Origin: Elusimicrobia bacterium GWA2_56_46 | Lineage (GTDB): Bacteria; Elusimicrobiota; Elusimicrobia; Elusimicrobiales; UBA9959 | Length of the DNA stretch: 49,178 bases | Direction: 5' to 3' | NCBI GenBank assembly: GCA_001799575.1 | Contig: MGTT01000018.1 | Span: forward strand, 77,404 to 126,581 | Part shown: one piece after another, positions 13,934-38,068 of the stretch | How the letters are laid out: each line of letters opens with the position of its first letter | How positions within the stretch are numbered: the first letter of the stretch is position 1 | Translations under genes and position numbers: made by a program | Notes under the pieces: model-generated | What the model was told of the DNA's origin: nothing | Databases searched by the model: none | What the model saw: only the letters and a program-made list of their open reading frames with translations

Positions 13934-14031
13934 CATCCCTCATCCCTCATCCCTCATCCCTCATCCCTCATCCCTCATCCCTCATCCCTCATCCCTCATC
14001 CCTCATCCCTCATCCCTCATCCCTCATCCCT
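13934..14031. repeat. Tandem repeat, 14 exact copies of a 7-bp unit
   Basis: CATCCCT repeated 14 times with no mismatch (98 bases). On the coding strand the unit reads AGGGATG, so every copy offers both a Shine-Dalgarno-like AGGG and an ATG. It overlaps the last codons and stop of the E1-like gene and ends one base before the MoaD-like start codon. Confidence 0.97.
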
Positions 14032-14763
14032 CTTACCGCACACCCCACATGCCCGCCGCCTTTTAAGCCGCACGGAATGGGCTGCGCCGTGAGCGAAATC
14101 GTATATGACCAGCCGGCCCCGCAGATGCGGCAGTCCGCATATGATTTTTATCACTTCCGCGGCCTGCATCGCCCCGATGGCGCCGGGCGCCGGTCCGGGC
14201 GCGGGGGTATATCCTTTCAACCGCGGCGGCATATGCGGGAAGACGCACTTAAGGCACGGCCCCCCTCGCGGCGCTATAACCGCAAGCTGCCCCTCAAAAC
14301 CGTAAACCGCGCCATGAACCAGGGTACGCCCGGCCCTCACGCAGGCCTTGTTAAGCTCGAAGCGGGCCTCAAAATTATCCGTGCAGTCCGCCACCAGGCC
14401 GTACTTCTTCAAAAGCGGCGCCAGGTTCTCCGAGTCCAGTTTCAGGCGCAGCGGTTCCAGCCGGACGCGCGGGTTAAGATCTTTAAGGAAAGACGCGAGC
14501 AGACGCACCTTGGCGCGGCCCAGATCCCGCGTCTTATAGAATATCTGCCGGTTAAGATTGGAAAGTTCCAGCAGCCCCGGATCAGCGAAGCCGAGCCGCC
14601 CCACGCCGGCCGCGGCCAGGTAGGCCAAAACCACGCCGCCAAGCCCTCCGGCGCCGGCCACCAGCACCGAAGCGTTCTTAAGCTTCGCCTGACCCCTGAG
14701 GCCGATGCCGGGGACTATCAACTGGCGCGAATATCTCTCGCTCTCCTGTCTGGATAGAGGCAT
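14017..14763 (-). CDS. E1-like adenylyltransferase (ThiF/MoeB/HesA family)
   Basis: 248 residues from the ATG at 14761-14763. Opens SRQESERYSRQLIVPGIG, typical of MoeB/ThiF. The nucleotide site GAGGLGG is at about 37-43, followed by SNLNRQIFY and DCTDNFEARF. Two CxxC pairs (PCLKC and CGVC) probably bind structural zinc. It should adenylate the C-terminal glycine of the MoaD-like protein encoded next. The last residues and stop codon (KRDEG) are read from the CATCCCT array. The upstream spacer is also a word array and no clear Shine-Dalgarno is seen, so the start is uncertain; a GTG at 14779-14781 would add six residues. MoeB and ThiF roles cannot be separated by eye. Confidence 0.88.
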   Translation of the reverse strand: MPLSRQESERYSRQLIVPGIGLRGQAKLKNASVLVAGAGGLGGVVLAYLAAAGVGRLGFADPGLLELSNLNRQIFYKTRDLGRAKVRLLASFLKDLNPRVRLEPLRLKLDSENLAPLLKKYGLVADCTDNFEARFELNKACVRAGRTLVHGAVYGFEGQLAVIAPRGGPCLKCVFPHMPPRLKGYTPAPGPAPGAIGAMQAAEVIKIICGLPHLRGRLVIYDFAHGAAHSVRLKRRRACGVCGKRDEG

Positions 14764-16169: not shown

Positions 16170-16175
16170 AATTTA

Positions 16176-16225
16176 AAGAGGAGCCAGCCTCCTTTTGACC
16201 CCCAAAAGGAGGCTGGCTCCTTTTT
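16176..16225. terminator. Inverted pair of family A palindromes acting as a terminator
   Basis: Two family A palindromes (arms AAAAGGAG and CTCCTTTT, loop CCAGC or its complement) face each other, giving one long stem ending in T/A runs. It lies 14 bases past the stop of the secreted repeat protein and just upstream of the MurC-like gene. Other copies: 16907-16929, 22370-22418, 23566-23586. Confidence 0.8.
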
Positions 16226-16906: not shown

Positions 16907-16929
16907 AAAAAGGAGCCAGCCTCTTTTTT
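16907..16929. repeat. Family A palindrome, single copy
   Basis: AAAAAGGAG, CCAGC loop, CTCTTTTTT; one mismatch in the stem. It overlaps the stop codon of the MNT antitoxin gene (16928-16930) and would serve as its terminator. Confidence 0.75.
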
Positions 16930-17266
16930 AGCCTATTTTCCCCTGGATGACTTCGTATTTTGAAAGTATGATTTTTTTAAAGCTCTCATCGGTATCGCAC
17001 CAATCCACAATATCCACCGCAAAAGGCAGGTCGGAATCCGAAAACGCTTCCCGCAGATTGCCGATCTCTTGTAGCGAAAGTCCGTTATCCGAGATTACGG
17101 CCAGATCAAAGTCCGAATGCTCTTTGACTTTTTGCGGCGCGCGGTCGGCGCTGTTTTCCGGCGGACGGGAAACCCTTGAACCGAAAGCCAATACAGCGGC
17201 GGCGGGCACAAACCGCCCAAGTATAGCCTTGATGACCGCAAGTTGTCCGGGTTTAAGTTCCAGCAT
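16928..17266 (-). CDS. mntA: MNT-type nucleotidyltransferase antitoxin
   Basis: 112 residues. Minimal nucleotidyltransferase fold: FGSR at about 28-31 and SDFDLAV with D52 and D54 as metal ligands. The spacing between GS and the DxD is longer than usual because of an insert (about 36-48). In HEPN/MNT systems this protein neutralises the HEPN RNase, in known cases by AMPylating it. The start overlaps the end of the HEPN gene by 14 bases, so the two are translationally coupled. The stop lies in a family A palindrome. Confidence 0.88.
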   Translation of the reverse strand: MLELKPGQLAVIKAILGRFVPAAAVLAFGSRVSRPPENSADRAPQKVKEHSDFDLAVISDNGLSLQEIGNLREAFSDSDLPFAVDIVDWCDTDESFKKIILSKYEVIQGKIG

Positions 17267-22350: not shown

Positions 22351-22369
22351 ACACCGGCGCCGCTTGCCG

Positions 22370-22418
22370 AAAAGGAGCCAGCCTCCTTTTGGCCTCAAAA
22401 AGGAGGCTGGCTCCTTTT
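22370..22418. terminator. Inverted pair of family A palindromes
   Basis: Two 21-22 base palindromes (22370-22390 and 22397-22418) in opposite orientation with six bases between, followed by a partial GGCTCCTTTT. Located 18 bases past the stop of the fibre-like gene; a strong hairpin for termination. Confidence 0.8.
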
Positions 22419-22435
22419 CGGGCTCCTTTTCGCTG

Positions 22436-23508: not shown

Positions 23509-23565
23509 AAAGACAGGACTGGTTTGGTCAGCGGGGGACAAATTTTATACCATATGTTATATGTT

Positions 23566-23586
23566 AAAAGGAGCCAGCCTCCTTTT
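23566..23586. repeat. Family A palindrome upstream of the DUF6485 gene
   Basis: Perfect 8-bp stem AAAAGGAG/CTCCTTTT with loop CCAGC. It ends 11 bases before the DUF6485 start codon; the following GAAGG forms the ribosome-binding site. In this position it could act as an attenuator. Confidence 0.8.
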
Positions 23587-23597
23587 GAAGGTGACAT

Positions 23598-24266: not shown

Positions 24267-25823
24267 ATGCATCCTTTACTTGAAAAGAAACATACGGGCG
24301 CGCTGCTGCCGCTTTTCGCCATGCGCTCCAAAAAGGACTGGGGCATCGGAGATATCTCAAGCCTGGGCCTGTGGATAGACGCCCTCGCGGCGCTTAACCT
24401 GGATCTTGTCCAGTTCCTGCCGCTCAACGAGATGCCCCCCGGCGTCTCCTGCCCCTATACGGCCCTCAGCGCTTTCGCGCTGGACCCGCTCTTCATCGCC
24501 ATAGAGGAGATTCCCGAACTGGCCGAGTGTCCGGAACTCAAAGAAGAGATCTCCTCAAAAAGATTCCAGACGGTCCTGCGCCATCTGCGCGGCTCGAAAA
24601 CTATCTATTACAACGACGTCAAGCAGTTGAAGTTCGACATCCTCTGGAAACTTTACTGCCGCTTCCATGAAAACCACATTCTCAAAGGCACCGCCCAGGC
24701 CGCCGGGTTCTTCGCTTTCGCGGACAAAAACGATTACTGGCTGCGCGACTACTCGCTCTTCCGGCGCCTCAAAGACACGCATAGCTGGACCTCCTGGACG
24801 CACTGGGAAGAACCGCTGCGCCGCCGCGACCCGAAAGCCCTTAAAGAATTCGAAGCCGCCAATGAGAACCAGGTGAGGTTCTTCAAGTACCTCCAATGGG
24901 TGATAGACCGGCAGTGGCGCGCCGCGAAAGAAAAAGCCGCGGCGAAAGGCGTCCGGTTTATAGGCGATCTGCCTTTCATGGTGAACCAGGAAAGTTCGGA
25001 CGTCTGGGCCCGCCAGGGAGAGTTCGATATTCACAAGGAGATCGGCGCTCCGCCGGACGCTTTCAGCGAGACCGGCCAGAGGTGGGGCCTGCCCGCTTAC
25101 CGCTGGGAAGAGGCGGAAAAGAACGATTTTGAATGGTGGCGGCTGAAAGTCAAAAAAGCGGAGGAACTCTACGACCTTTTCCGCATAGACCACATGGTCG
25201 GTTTTTTCAGAACCTGGCTCATCCCGCATGACGCGGCGCTGAAGCCGGATTTCGACATCAGGGATGAGAAAGCCCAGCGCGAGCGGGGCAAACGTTTTCT
25301 TGAAGCCATCCTCCGCGCGAGCCGCATGCTGCCGGTGGCGGAAGACCTGGGGCTGATCCCGCCTTTCGTCTACGAAGTCCTGGCGGAACTGAACATCCCG
25401 GGCTACAAAGTCATGCGCTGGGAAAAAAAGGCCGGTAAATATACCGAGCCGGAAAACTATCCGCGCGTCTCGCTGGCGACTTCTTCCACCCATGATAACG
25501 AACCCCTGGCCGACTGGTGGGCCGCGGTGGAGTACGGGGAGAAAAAACTTTTCTGGGCCATGGTCTCCGGCCAAAGCGGCAAGCCCCCCGTTTTTTCAAA
25601 AGCGAGGGAGGCTGTGCTCCGGAAACTGCTCAGATCCGCCTCCAGCCTTGTCATCCTGCCGATCCAGGACATCTTCGGCTCGCGCGACAGAATAAACGTC
25701 CCCGGCACCGTGGGCGGCCACAACTGGACATACAAGTTCCCGACCCCGGTGGAGGATTTTTTCAGGAAACACGACGGGCTGCTTAAAAATTTCGCCGCGC
25801 TGGTCAAAGAGGAGAGAAAGTGA
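24267..25823 (+). CDS. malQ: 4-alpha-glucanotransferase (amylomaltase, GH77)
   Basis: 518 residues, normal GH77 length. It transfers maltosyl or longer alpha-1,4-glucan segments, a cytoplasmic step in glycogen/maltodextrin metabolism. Active-site motifs: FRIDHMVGF with the nucleophile D308, VAEDLG with the acid/base E359, and STHDN with D410. The N-terminal RSKKDWGIGDISSLGLWIDALA and PYTALSAFALDP are also typical. The start abuts a T7 run after a large hairpin and lacks a clear ribosome-binding site. The stop overlaps the GTG start of the next gene. Confidence 0.96.
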   Translation: MHPLLEKKHTGALLPLFAMRSKKDWGIGDISSLGLWIDALAALNLDLVQFLPLNEMPPGVSCPYTALSAFALDPLFIAIEEIPELAECPELKEEISSKRFQTVLRHLRGSKTIYYNDVKQLKFDILWKLYCRFHENHILKGTAQAAGFFAFADKNDYWLRDYSLFRRLKDTHSWTSWTHWEEPLRRRDPKALKEFEAANENQVRFFKYLQWVIDRQWRAAKEKAAAKGVRFIGDLPFMVNQESSDVWARQGEFDIHKEIGAPPDAFSETGQRWGLPAYRWEEAEKNDFEWWRLKVKKAEELYDLFRIDHMVGFFRTWLIPHDAALKPDFDIRDEKAQRERGKRFLEAILRASRMLPVAEDLGLIPPFVYEVLAELNIPGYKVMRWEKKAGKYTEPENYPRVSLATSSTHDNEPLADWWAAVEYGEKKLFWAMVSGQSGKPPVFSKAREAVLRKLLRSASSLVILPIQDIFGSRDRINVPGTVGGHNWTYKFPTPVEDFFRKHDGLLKNFAALVKEERK

Positions 25824-26779
25824 GACAAGTCACAGGTCACAAGACACAGGACACAAGACACAGGGCACAAGACACAGGGCACAAGACACGGGTTTTTTCA
25901 CTGCCGGCGACCCTACGCTCGCTGCATCCGGAAGCTCTCACCCGTTCTATTCTCTGCTCGCTATTCCCCATTTTATCGCTTATACTTTCCGGCTGTTCCG
26001 TCAACCGGATGGCGGTCAGGGCCACGGCCTCGGTCATAGATACGGGGCTGCCGGCGGTCTACAGAGAAAGAGATCCGCAGTTCGCGCGGGAAGCGCTGCC
26101 GGCCAATCTTAAACTCATGGAGATCCTGCTGGAAAGCGACCCCGGCAACCAGACCCTGCTAGTGGACGCGGCCATGGGCTTCTGCGGTTACGGCTTCATG
26201 TTCATAGAGGACGAGAGCGAAACCCGGGCCTCCGCCCTGTATGAAAAAGGCGGCGCCTACGCCCTCAAAGCTCTCGCGCTCAGAGGAGTGGTTGAGGACG
26301 GCCTGGTCTCGCCCCGCGCGCTGGATAAGAATTCCGCGCCGGCCGCTTTCTGGCATACTTTCTGCCGCGCCGCCTACGTGAACCTGAACCGCGACGATCC
26401 CGACGCGCTGGCCGAACTCCCTAAGATCATGCCGGTGGCTGAAAGGGTGGCGGAACTTACCCCCTCCTACTATTACAACGGGGCATACGCCATGCTGGGA
26501 ACCTACTACGCCCTGAGGCCGAAGATACTCGGCGGCGATCCGGTGAAAGCGAAGCTGAATTTCGACAAAGCCCTGGAAGGCGCGGGCTCTGATTTTCTCC
26601 TGAACAGTTACATGGCGGCGAAGATGTACGGAGTGGCCGCGCAGGACCAGGATTTTTTCGAGAACGCGCTGAACGCCATACTCGCCGCCGAACTGAAAGA
26701 CGACGGCGCCAGGCTGCCCAACGAAGTTGCCAGGATCAAAGCCCGGAAACTGCTGGAGAAAAAAAATGAATTGTTTTAA
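25820..26779 (+). CDS. TRAP-associated TatT-type lipoprotein (TPR-like)
   Basis: 319 residues from the GTG at 25820-25822, which overlaps the malQ stop and has GAGGAG about 7 bases upstream. A lipobox ILSGC places the lipidated cysteine at about C59, after an unusually long leader. Residues about 5-24 are translated from a 14-bp tandem array. The mature part is helical, with a TatT-like arrangement of helix pairs (YEKGGAYALKALAL, PSYYYNGAYAMLGTYYALRP, GGDPVKAKLNFDKALE). In Treponema, TatT forms a complex with the TRAP binding protein; here dctP, dctQ and dctM follow directly, matching that arrangement. It probably hands ligand to the binding protein in the periplasm. Confidence 0.88.
   Translation: MRQVTGHKTQDTRHRAQDTGHKTRVFSLPATLRSLHPEALTRSILCSLFPILSLILSGCSVNRMAVRATASVIDTGLPAVYRERDPQFAREALPANLKLMEILLESDPGNQTLLVDAAMGFCGYGFMFIEDESETRASALYEKGGAYALKALALRGVVEDGLVSPRALDKNSAPAAFWHTFCRAAYVNLNRDDPDALAELPKIMPVAERVAELTPSYYYNGAYAMLGTYYALRPKILGGDPVKAKLNFDKALEGAGSDFLLNSYMAAKMYGVAAQDQDFFENALNAILAAELKDDGARLPNEVARIKARKLLEKKNELF
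25824..25893. repeat. 14-bp tandem array inside the tatT coding region
   Basis: Unit CACAAGACACAGGG: copies at 25838-25851, 25852-25865 and 25866-25879, a degenerate fourth at 25880-25893, and a partial one before. The unit is not a multiple of three, so gain or loss of one copy would shift the tatT frame. Confidence 0.9.
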
Positions 26780-35253: not shown

Positions 35254-37161
35254 TCAGGGCAAGCGGTTAAGCCTGTTCTTGTGCAGGTAGTTGGCGGTCT
35301 GGTAAAAGGCGATCCCCTCGTCTTTTAAGCCGGCGGTTTCCGGCCCTTCGGACAGGGTTTCAGCCCTCCCCTCGATGCGGTAAGTCTTTACATATTTCAT
35401 CGGGCCGAGCACGGCCAGAAAATCCCCCTTTAAAAACCCCAGCTTCTGGTAGGTGGAGACAAAAGCCCGGCCCGCGGCCGGGCCGCCTTTCATGGCGTCC
35501 CGCCCCAGGAAGATGCTCTCATAACTGAAATTCAACAAACCGAGAACCGTGGGCGCCACATCCGGCTGGCCGGCCAGGACTTCCGACACGCCCGGCTTCA
35601 CATGGGCCGGTGAGTAGATCAGCAGGGGAATATGGTAATTCCGGACCGGCATTTCGGTCCGGTCGGCCGAGTTGGCGCAGTGGTCGGCGGTAATGATGAA
35701 AACCGTGTCCCTGAACCAGGGCCTGTTTTTTGCGTCCTTAAGAAATTTGCCTATGGCGTAATCCGCGTATTTTATCGCGCCGCGCCGGCTTTGGGAAGAC
35801 GGCGGGATATCTATGCGCCCTTCCGGATAAGTGAAAGGCCTATGGTTGGAAGTGGTCATGACCAGGCTGAAAAACCGCTTGCCGGCCTTGTAGGACTTGT
35901 CCGCTTCCGTTATGGTCCTGTTCAGGAGATCCTCATCGGACACGCCCCAGACATTGGCGAACGCTATTTCGCTTTTAGCGAAATCGGCCCGGTCCACGAT
36001 ATCAAAGCCGTTTCCCGCGAAAAACGAATTCATGTTATCAAAATATCCATAACCGGCGTAGATGAATTTATTATCGTAGCCGCGTTCCCGCATCAGGCCG
36101 CCCCAAGAAAAAAAACCGCCGTTATCGGGCCGCTTTATGATGGACGTGCCGGGGAGCGGCGGCATGGAAAGGTTGAGCGCCTCAAGGCCGCGCACCGTCC
36201 TGGTGCCGGAGGCGTAGAATTTTTTGAAGAAGAGGGATTTCGGCGCGAGGGAGTCCAGATTCGGCGTGACGCCCTTGTTCCCGCCCAGTGCCTTGAGGTA
36301 TTCCCCGCTCAGACTTTCTTCCACTATCAGGACGAGATTCAGTTTTTTTTCCGGCCCTGAAGCGGTTATCTTCCTTTTTATATTCCGGAGCTCCGGGCCG
36401 AGGAAGCGGACACCGGAACCTTTAAGATCATCACGCAGCAGCCTGAACGCCGCGTCCGCGTCCATGGAGGCGTAAAACTTATCATAAGGCAGCTCATTGT
36501 TCCTCAGGGCGGAAAAGAAAGAATAGACGCCGTTGGAGGAAAGTTCGTTGGCGTATTCGTTACGGCTTATCCGCGCCCAGTTCAGGGTGACGAAAGCGAA
36601 ACCCAGGACGGGAACCGCCAGCATAACGGCCGCCGGCAGGAGACGTTTTCTGAAAGGCCCGGCCGCGGCGAGCGCCCGGTCAAGGGGTTTTTTAGCCAGG
36701 GCCAGTACCCCGGCGGAAAGCACAAAGAGCGCCGGCAGGATCAGCGCCAGGTTGTAGGACTCCCTGATATTCCCCCACACCTCGTTCGTATAGACCAGAT
36801 AATCCACGGCGATAAAGTTGAACCTCACGCCGAACTCATAGAAAAACAGATACTCAGCGGTTCCGTTGAACGCCAGGGCGTAAGCGGACAGGAAAAATAC
36901 GGCCCGGACGGCGTAACGGTGCCATTTGGACGAATACACCCCCGCTGGAGCCAGAAGCGTCCAGAACACCAGCGGCAGGGCCGCGTAGGAGAACGTGAGG
37001 ATGTCAAAAAAAAGACCGACGGTGAAAATCTTGGCGAGGAGAGGGATGCCGTGTTCCAGTTCCGGCCAGGCGTAAACGGCAAGCGCGGCCCTTGTCAGGA
37101 ACGAAGCCGCCAGGAACAGAATCAGGAACACGTTGACCAGGGAAAACCTGTTTTTATCCAT
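35254..37161 (-). CDS. LtaS/MdoB-like membrane phosphoglycerol transferase (sulfatase fold)
   Basis: 635 residues. Five TM segments in the first 195 residues, then an extracytoplasmic sulfatase-fold domain. Metal/active-site features: LVLIVEESLSGEY with E281/E282, ASGTRTVRGLEAL with the likely nucleophile T322, TTSNHRPFTYP, and FIITADHC. This set is typical of lipoteichoic-acid synthase and MdoB-like enzymes that transfer phosphoglycerol or phosphoethanolamine from lipids to surface glycans. In a Gram-negative context the acceptor is probably a periplasmic glucan or a lipid-linked glycan (inference). Upstream lies the MITE at 37186-37450. Confidence 0.9.
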   Translation of the reverse strand: MDKNRFSLVNVFLILFLAASFLTRAALAVYAWPELEHGIPLLAKIFTVGLFFDILTFSYAALPLVFWTLLAPAGVYSSKWHRYAVRAVFFLSAYALAFNGTAEYLFFYEFGVRFNFIAVDYLVYTNEVWGNIRESYNLALILPALFVLSAGVLALAKKPLDRALAAAGPFRKRLLPAAVMLAVPVLGFAFVTLNWARISRNEYANELSSNGVYSFFSALRNNELPYDKFYASMDADAAFRLLRDDLKGSGVRFLGPELRNIKRKITASGPEKKLNLVLIVEESLSGEYLKALGGNKGVTPNLDSLAPKSLFFKKFYASGTRTVRGLEALNLSMPPLPGTSIIKRPDNGGFFSWGGLMRERGYDNKFIYAGYGYFDNMNSFFAGNGFDIVDRADFAKSEIAFANVWGVSDEDLLNRTITEADKSYKAGKRFFSLVMTTSNHRPFTYPEGRIDIPPSSQSRRGAIKYADYAIGKFLKDAKNRPWFRDTVFIITADHCANSADRTEMPVRNYHIPLLIYSPAHVKPGVSEVLAGQPDVAPTVLGLLNFSYESIFLGRDAMKGGPAAGRAFVSTYQKLGFLKGDFLAVLGPMKYVKTYRIEGRAETLSEGPETAGLKDEGIAFYQTANYLHKNRLNRLP

Positions 37162-37185
37162 GACTCAGGGCTGGAGAGGCTTTAA

Positions 37186-37450
37186 GGAGCCGTGACAGAA
37201 TAATTTGAGCATTTGGCTGACCGATTTTGGGCTGCAACAAGGAACGAGGAGCGCGGCGTACTAATTGGTACGTAAGCGACGAATGACGCAGTTGCAGCCC
37301 AAAAGCGGTCAGCCCCCCGGGGGAGGCGCATCTTTGGCCGGCTGCTGCGTTGCTCCTCCTCTATGCAGCCCAGCTGCACCATCGTCGTCGCGCCTTGCAT
37401 CCGACTCAAAGCTGTGCCTCCAAATGCTCAAATTATTCTGTCACGGCTCC
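37186..37450. mobile_element. MITE-like element with 31-bp terminal inverted repeats
   Basis: Perfect 31-base inverted ends (37186-37216 and 37420-37450), starting GGAGCCGTGACAG and reading ...GAGCATTTGG inwards. The direct repeat TAA flanks both sides (37183-37185 and 37451-37453), a candidate target duplication. Inside are two further imperfect hairpins: 37216-37314 (GGCTGACCG...CGGTCAGCC, with GGGCTGCAAC...GTTGCAGCCC) and about 37322-37420 (GGAGGCGCATCTTTGG against CAAAGCTGTGCCTCC). No coding capacity. The right end overlaps the SRAP gene and provides its last five residues and stop codon. Confidence 0.88.
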
Positions 37451-38068
37451 TAAGCATTCCGGGGAATTATTCTCCGGGGAATTGACCACGGCCGACACCT
37501 TGTAGCCGTGCATAAGGGCGGAATCGAAGGCGCGCAGGATGGGCAGCAGTTCCTCGGTATTGCTGGAGCGCAGATCCAGCCAGAGCTTTTCCCGCTCTCC
37601 GTCCAGAATGACAGGCATCCGGTGATGCACCGTTTTGACCAGGGCGTTGGCCAGGCAGGTCACCACGGCGTAAGTTCCGGTGGCCTCGTCATAGACGCCG
37701 GCCATGGCGAAAAGGCCCTTGTCCCTCAGTTCGAATCTGTACGGCACTTTCTCACCCGCGGTATGGGCCCACTCATAGAAACCGTCCGCCGGCACTACGC
37801 AGCGTTTGTTGTAAAAAGCGTTTTTGAAAGTCGGCCTGGAAGCTATCCCCTCCGCGCGGGCGTTTATGAACCCTTCCCGCCCGCCGCTTCCCGCCCAGCC
37901 GGGGATAAACCCCCATCTCAGCATCTTGATTACGCCTCCTGCTATAACAGGGGCTTCCTGCCCGGCCGAGATATTATAACTCGGGCGCACAGGCATGCTC
38001 GGCGGTTTCACATGGAAACGCTTCACAAGTTCGCCGGCTTCAAAAGTTTGGGAATATCTTACGCACAT
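37433..38068 (-). CDS. SRAP-domain protein (YedK/HMCES, abasic-site DNA-protein crosslinker)
   Basis: 211 residues. Catalytic Cys2 (MCVRYS), N69 in FINARAE, E99 in VPADGFYEW, and H148 in VKTVHHRMPVIL, the set needed to form a thiazolidine crosslink with abasic sites in single-stranded DNA. Length is close to normal. The natural-looking end NNSPECL is followed by GAVTE and a stop, all encoded by the inserted MITE, so the original C-terminus was replaced. The start codon overlaps the stop of the response regulator by one base (TAATG), so the two are coupled. Confidence 0.93.
   Translation of the reverse strand: MCVRYSQTFEAGELVKRFHVKPPSMPVRPSYNISAGQEAPVIAGGVIKMLRWGFIPGWAGSGGREGFINARAEGIASRPTFKNAFYNKRCVVPADGFYEWAHTAGEKVPYRFELRDKGLFAMAGVYDEATGTYAVVTCLANALVKTVHHRMPVILDGEREKLWLDLRSSNTEELLPILRAFDSALMHGYKVSAVVNSPENNSPECLGAVTE

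Follow-up and report, generated by a model that had tools for sequence, protein, structure and literature searches.

In the genome of Elusimicrobia bacterium GWA2_56_46, a gene of the SRAP family ends inside a short inverted repeat, a situation that raises the question of what kind of element occupies this locus, how it came to supply the end of a gene, and by what means such elements are moved. The stretch of DNA analyzed (49,178 nucleotides of contig MGTT01000018.1, henceforth the window) had received a first-pass annotation, in which the repeat was described as a MITE inserted at the end of the SRAP gene. The features of the locus are as follows, in window positions.

37165-37182, minus strand: stranded native SRAP end, KPLQP-stop (orthologue ends CLKPPQP-stop and others)
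37183-37185, unstranded: left target duplication, 3 bp, TAA (TTA on the minus strand), read from the sequence
37186-37450, unstranded: MITE, 265 bp
37186-37216, plus strand: left inverted end, type A, 100% complementary to 37420-37450
37215-37314, plus strand: core hairpin 1, with G-A-rich halves at 37246-37253 and 37276-37282 on the plus strand
37314-37323, unstranded: linker CCCCCGGGGG joining the hairpins, midpoint of the element's large-scale symmetry
37322-37421, minus strand: core hairpin 2, whose G-A-rich strand is the minus strand
37348-37358, minus strand: motif half CGTTGCTCCTC (minus strand GAGGAGCAACG)
37385-37395, minus strand: motif half TCGTCGCGCCT (minus strand AGGCGCGACGA)
37420-37450, minus strand: right inverted end, type A
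37451-37453, unstranded: right target duplication, TAA, an L codon (TTA) in SRAP
37433-38068, minus strand: SRAP gene (PF02586, E 4.5e-55), whose last five sense codons and stop (37450-37433) lie inside the element

The Window Copy and the Gene End It Rewrote

The element is flanked by a copy of TAA on each side, and its two 31-nt arms are 100% complementary (or 32 nt when the A/T of the duplication is included); its length of 265 bp, its perfect 31-bp inverted ends and the flanking TAA, all put forward in the first-pass annotation, are thus borne out by coordinates and arm complementarity. No other perfect inverted repeat in the whole window reaches 26 nt with its copies no more than 3 kb apart. 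The coding capacity of the element is limited to chance ORFs (62 and 75 aa), inside it or crossing its edge. The predicted fold consists of an outer stem and two hairpins, the three-way junction that had been proposed, with an energy of -153.1 kcal/mol when computed for RNA and -91.6 for DNA (z -13.5 and -12.6, respectively); none of the shuffled sequences folded as well (0/200 as RNA, 0/200 as DNA).

On the minus strand, SRAP passes through the TTA of the duplication and continues with GGA GCC GTG ACA GAA TAA, ending as L-GAVTE-stop (GAVTE codons at 37450-37436, stop at 37435-37433), and the old end, AAG CCT CTC CAG CCC TGA, survives beyond the element at 37182-37165. Deletion in silico of the element and one TAA restores a SRAP end that reads ...CLKPLQP-stop. 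Four close SRAP orthologues, any of which might have carried GAVTE without the element, lack it and end in CLKPPQP-stop, CLKPVEE-stop, CLKPLLP-stop and CLKPLLP-stop. The replacement of the native C-terminus is therefore well founded on the stranded KPLQP-stop, the restored empty site and the orthologues. Insertion took place in the TTA of the series C-L-K-P, as a consequence of which SRAP now terminates in GAVTE-stop instead of KPLQP-stop. The same GAVTE-stop had been described as readable outward from each end; it is present from both sides, but the direction of reading is into the element, not outward. In this case an insertion rewrote the end of a gene, and the earlier state can still be read from both flanks.

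Before the insertion, 3 nt separated the SRAP stop from the start of a co-directional gene with a sulfatase domain (TGA gtc ATG; 37161-37182), and approximately 270 nt of strongly folding DNA now lie between the two; in the relative G002, another gene is found next to SRAP. Other repeats of the window include a short palindrome, approximately AAAAGGAGCCAGCCTCCTTTT, present in five copies (16175-16201, 16907-16933, 22369-22395, 22397-22423 and 23565-23591) and possibly terminator-like or REP-like, as well as tandem arrays of the heptamer CATCCCT (13934-14045) and of a 14-mer resembling GTCACAAGACACAG (25822-25891).

Copies in Elusimicrobiota and in Other Phyla

The first-pass annotation had made its reading depend on the existence of further copies, and these were found: the genome itself holds 10 core loci (the window copy and nine others), and matches occur in 24 of the 61 genomes searched, all from one family, with no match in the 24 genomes of another family of the same order. 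Across the phylum Elusimicrobiota, the core motif is present in 41/340 genomes and a reversed control pattern in 0/340, and inverted repeats surround the core in 66 of the 70 loci examined. The two type A copies of the genome (for end types, see below) differ at 9/32 arm positions, yet each is perfectly paired. Searches of IMG/VR with the exact core motif pattern, and of plasmids and phages by blastn with the window element, gave no match; a related betaproteobacterial element has one plasmid match, annotated as a hypothetical protein.

Identification of the window element as a MITE is thus supported by its inverted ends, its duplication, the empty site and the dispersed copies, together with a non-coding length within the 50-500 bp expected of such elements, and, taken by itself, the window copy represents an ordinary MITE insertion, if one with a neat effect on SRAP. 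The evidence demonstrates the insertion with its 3-bp duplication, the reconstructed empty site, the existence of a family of copies and the conservation of the fold (see below).

A scan of a genome collection for the hairpin motif recovered at least 119 stretches, from which 80 loci were taken for placement in phyla. At least 11 phyla are represented among the matches listed for the core hairpin motif: Pseudomonadota (18 loci), Acidobacteriota (15), Gemmatimonadota (14), Myxococcota (12), Elusimicrobiota (8), Omnitrophota (3), Verrucomicrobiota (3), Nitrospirota (2) and three other phyla with 1 each, 2 loci being unplaced. These 80 loci correspond to 85 motif occurrences among the same listed matches; terminal repeats, which form 31 tip clusters, accompany 57 of them, and of the 28 occurrences without such repeats several lack room for them. 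In 48 of the 57 listed cases, 55-60 bp lie between the motif and the nearer end of the element, the ends themselves being unrelated, and the elements take one of two forms among these matches, with one hairpin (approximately 160 bp) or with two (approximately 265-280 bp). Two loci of OX639991.1 (Longimicrobiales; L236 4718-4936 and L252 7058-7448) carry tandem copies of the core motif, spaced 171-172 bp apart, indicating that the element can form arrays too.

Genome G005 (L148, L160, L161, L162) and genome G013 (L163) contain core-less palindromes of 39-50 bp, which consist of two type B ends with CTAG on the flanks. Half elements and such core-less hairpins (39-50 bp) are common in G005, which shows that palindromes of this kind rearrange readily.

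A Core Conserved as a Fold

The search motif consists of two halves, AGGCGCGACGA ... GAGGAGCAACG, the stretch between them being left free by the pattern. When the structure of the window copy is imposed on an alignment of 55 copies, 83.7% of cells are paired, as opposed to 69.4% after shuffling and 30-45% when the structure is slid along the alignment; changes on both sides are seen at 76 of the 99 pairs of this structure, with much of the signal coming from the ends. Within the free stretch, none of 1000 shuffles reaches the values seen for pairs 1, 2, 7, 9 and 10 (54 sequences), and the covarying pairs are of several types. Moreover, in a cross-phylum set of 79 distinct sequences, which are related, so that the counts overstate certainty, GA shifts in step on the two sides: it is mirrored at positions 3-4 in 26 of 29 sequences and at positions 2-3 in 9 of 13, and is on neither side in 34 of 37. 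A mirrored GA on one strand amounts to tandem G-A mismatches within a hairpin and does not form a symmetric site in the duplex, which points to selection on the folded strand. On these sequence comparisons, we read the core as probably being under selection as a folded single strand.

Several Kinds of Ends on One Core

Full copies were sorted into end types A to D, labels set in the present analysis. Type A ends (GGAGCC, GGGCTC and similar) are flanked by TAA/TAA in 12/34 rows and by TTA/TTA in 11/34, giving a perfect pair in 23/34; in the remaining 11/34 rows, the lack of a perfect TWA pair is due in part to decay and in part to boundaries misplaced by the script. Type B ends, GTGTAGTG, are flanked by TA/TA in 6/10 cases, type C ends, CTGAG, in 9/13 (row L145 being mistyped), and type D ends, GTGCTCTG, in 3/3. 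The target duplication is hence TWA for type A and TA for types B, C and D, and at least four kinds of inverted ends are carried by one folded core.

In the alignment of full copies (55 of the 57), the left and right arms of the same copy agree at 92-96% over 30 positions for types A-C, as opposed to 32-52% between the left arms of different copies of the same type, a low estimate in that the arms were not realigned. The sharpest comparison comes from genome G007, where L100 (type A) and L102 (type C) share 193 of 218 core positions (88%) but only 12/29 and 9/31 positions of their arms (<45%), and where the likeness stops at the same point on both sides. A tree of the core calls for at least 11 changes of end type, the minimum possible being 3, and in none of 200 bootstrap trees is type A, B or C gathered into a single group, although the sequences are related, not independent, and these counts, like those of covariation, overstate certainty. 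End types are nevertheless clustered on the core tree relative to shuffled labels, and the changes are thus repeated rather than frequent. It is this combination that makes the family unusual, in that the folded core is kept while both ends, including the target duplication, change together. The loop of hairpin 1 is also found in two versions, AAGGAACGAGGAGCGC.. and GAAGCGGCATGAAGCGAC.. (columns 55-132 of the 55-copy alignment), which combine with different end types, so that the core itself looks modular.

The reading that we favor, and consider probable, is that of a MITE with 31-bp ends that is moved in trans with a 3-bp TWA duplication and whose core has repeatedly been given new ends. A transposase acting in trans on the ends of the element would duplicate the 3-bp TWA target; its action in trans is inferred, given that the searches described below brought no autonomous type A element to light. 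The core would repeatedly gain the paired ends of different transposons, an exchange that could start by recombination at the shared inner stem and be completed when one arm is copied onto the other in a hairpin intermediate, the arms thereby staying matched. The fold of the core would, most likely, help the movement of the element or its tolerance.

These observations could alternatively be accounted for by a single fast-evolving IS630/Tc1-like lineage of transposases that moves all types, the ends and the 2- or 3-bp duplications drifting without any swapping. The presence of TA within every duplication, letters that A and C ends have in common by eye (GAGC, AATAA) and a gradual series of ends inside type A all speak for such drift. 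The G007 pair, with cores 88% identical in one genome and ends whose likeness stops at one and the same point left and right, speaks against it, as does the fact that A, B and D ends match IS630 ends no better than shuffles do, whereas C ends do; we regard this explanation as unlikely, albeit one to be taken seriously.

The Search for a Transposase

A transposase with matching ends was sought. Type C ends, compared to full-length elements of the IS630 family (approximately 1.1 kb), reach a mean best match of 16.2/25, as opposed to 10.5 for shuffles, and the transposase at L346 is a DDE_3 protein by profile match. Types A, B and D match IS630 ends at shuffle level only, and no autonomous partner was found for any of the three. 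For type A, tip patterns were searched in the genome itself and in 37 genomes without yielding an autonomous partner; 40 tip loci, nearly all of them single tips, were checked for a second tip and gave no autonomous type A element; inspection of the ends of DDE_Tnp_1 transposase loci in 25 genomes revealed none with type A ends; and DUF4096 was absent from 61 genomes. The matching transposase that the first-pass annotation had hoped for did not, therefore, emerge for type A from the tip, DDE_Tnp_1 and DUF4096 searches. L214/L340, considered as an IS630 element with a type B end (a DDE_3 gene followed some 110 bp behind by a type B tip), was rejected, the tip belonging to a small B-type MITE beside the DDE_3 gene. 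This small MITE (L340, ~2055-2185) has unequal arms and another core and lies directly behind the IS630-type transposase gene.

The window copy, whose duplication is TWA (3 bp) and whose ends match IS630 ends no better than shuffles do, thus differs from MITEs derived from IS630/Tc1 elements, and its type C relatives display both the TA duplication and the IS630-like ends. Type A, with its TWA duplication and ends that begin with GG, is reminiscent of IS5-group and PIF/Harbinger elements. Many known MITEs are orphans; the missing type A partner consequently lowers certainty regarding the mover, not regarding mobility.

A different kind of mover would be required if the element were REP/BIME-like, with a tyrosine (HUH) transposase that reads hairpins in single-stranded DNA and ends that are merely structural. 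Two inverted hairpins with conserved internal mismatches do recall BIMEs, as these are described in the accessible part of PMC3733652, and a folded strand under selection would suit such an enzyme. Clear 3-bp and 2-bp target duplications, ends of 30 bp, and the match of type C ends to IS630 elements, which are of the DDE type, argue in the opposite direction, making this explanation very improbable.

Gene Ends and Stop Codons

The element had also been portrayed as suited to landing in gene ends harmlessly, with a gene-end location anticipated for other copies. Many copies do lie at or just inside gene 3' ends: 30 of the 52 flanks with an ORF pointing at the copy run into it, and the native stop is known for 29 of these, of which 22 lose no more than 13 codons, stop included. 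Stops in all three frames are present in 65% of type A ends, 56% of type B, 21% of type C and 6/6 of type D, the corresponding values for shuffles being 19%, 7%, 7% and 3%, in a set of copies that are related. Neighboring genes show no striking pattern of orientation (11 convergent, 41 unidirectional, 8 divergent and 2 undetermined; n=62).

At 13 flanks, involving 12/34 copies (L087 counts twice), the duplication of a type A copy touches the stop codon of a gene, and nine of these duplications coincide exactly with the TAA stop of the neighbor; in the window, 28 of 141 eligible TWA sites touch a stop codon, 21 of them exactly. The resulting excess at stop codons is weak (P = 0.010 for touching, computed with 13 and slightly overstated, and 0.056 for exact coincidence, both crude and uncorrected), and no special targeting of gene ends is claimed beyond it. 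Harmless landing is therefore supported by the small losses and by stops above shuffle level, but purifying selection in a dense genome (the window is 93% coding) may be enough to explain the gene-end location, and gives a similar picture.

The strong fold and the many copies close to gene 3' ends could also suggest a regulatory RNA, such as a terminator or mRNA stabilizer, spread at gene ends and retained for the host. No family exceeds the gathering score when Rfam is compared to the window, two microRNA models falling below threshold (E 0.51 and 0.88). The G-A strand is unbiased with respect to flanking genes, with 9 in the same and 11 in the opposite orientation (20 unidirectional cases among the 85 occurrences in the matches listed), and the half elements and core-less hairpins of G005 are common enough to indicate that single copies are not maintained. 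A role of this kind is thus highly improbable, and a mobile element with exchangeable ends remains the preferred reading.

Relation to Known Elements and Significance

Small palindromic elements of other bacteria share individual features with the present family. RUP of Streptococcus pneumoniae, for which IS630-Spn1 is the proposed mover, resembles type C in being a small non-coding palindrome with TA at its ends that relies on an IS630 transposase in trans, but it measures 107 bp and has short ends of one kind, and a shared core with unrelated ends is not described in the accessible part of that source (PMC2229807). Correia/NEMIS elements of Neisseria are likewise MITEs, of 100-160 bp, with ends of approximately 25 bp, TA at the ends, folding transcripts and a location near genes; according to the same portion of PMC2229807 they have one end family in one genus, in contrast to the several end types and many phyla of the present core. 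REP/BIME sequences (GTAG and CGTC superfamilies) are similar in their inverted hairpin pairs, their conservation across phyla and their frequent location at gene 3' ends, yet, as far as the accessible part of PMC3733652 describes them, they are 20-40 bp long, carry a GTAG or CGTC tag, depend on tyrosine transposases where any is known, and lack 30-bp ends and TWA/TA duplications. The window element, with its 265 bp, 30-bp ends and duplications, differs from a class defined by 20-40 bp, a tag and no target duplication. TIMEs, miniature elements derived from Tn3, are also non-autonomous and generate mosaics, but have Tn3-type ends, and a core with unrelated ends is not described in the portion of PMC4133298 available. 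Triplex motifs (PMC4666352) and the MITEs of Thiomargarita (PMC4853749), judging from the accessible parts of these papers, are something different. The main text of a review (PMC10969869) mentions neither stop codons, chimeras nor Elusimicrobia, and searches of the open-access literature brought up no description of the present core, the papers retrieved with motif strings bearing unrelated titles.

One folded core with exchangeable ends, occurring far beyond Elusimicrobiota, is a new variant among MITEs. It is conceivable, although we advance this tentatively, that the hairpin core, with its mirrored tandem G-A mismatches and its fixed distance of approximately 55-60 bp to the end, is an old mobility module of at least 11 phyla that has repeatedly been re-equipped with the ends of different transposon families; on that same tentative footing, it is the core, and not the ends, that would constitute the lasting identity of these elements.

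MITEs are usually classed by their ends, each being seen as the shrunken derivative of a single parent element. In the present family, the ends are the replaceable part, and the folded core persists across phyla. If this is true, it would explain orphan MITEs that have no parent and would offer another route to classification, and it would raise the question of what role the fold of the core plays in an element that is moved by any transposase at hand.
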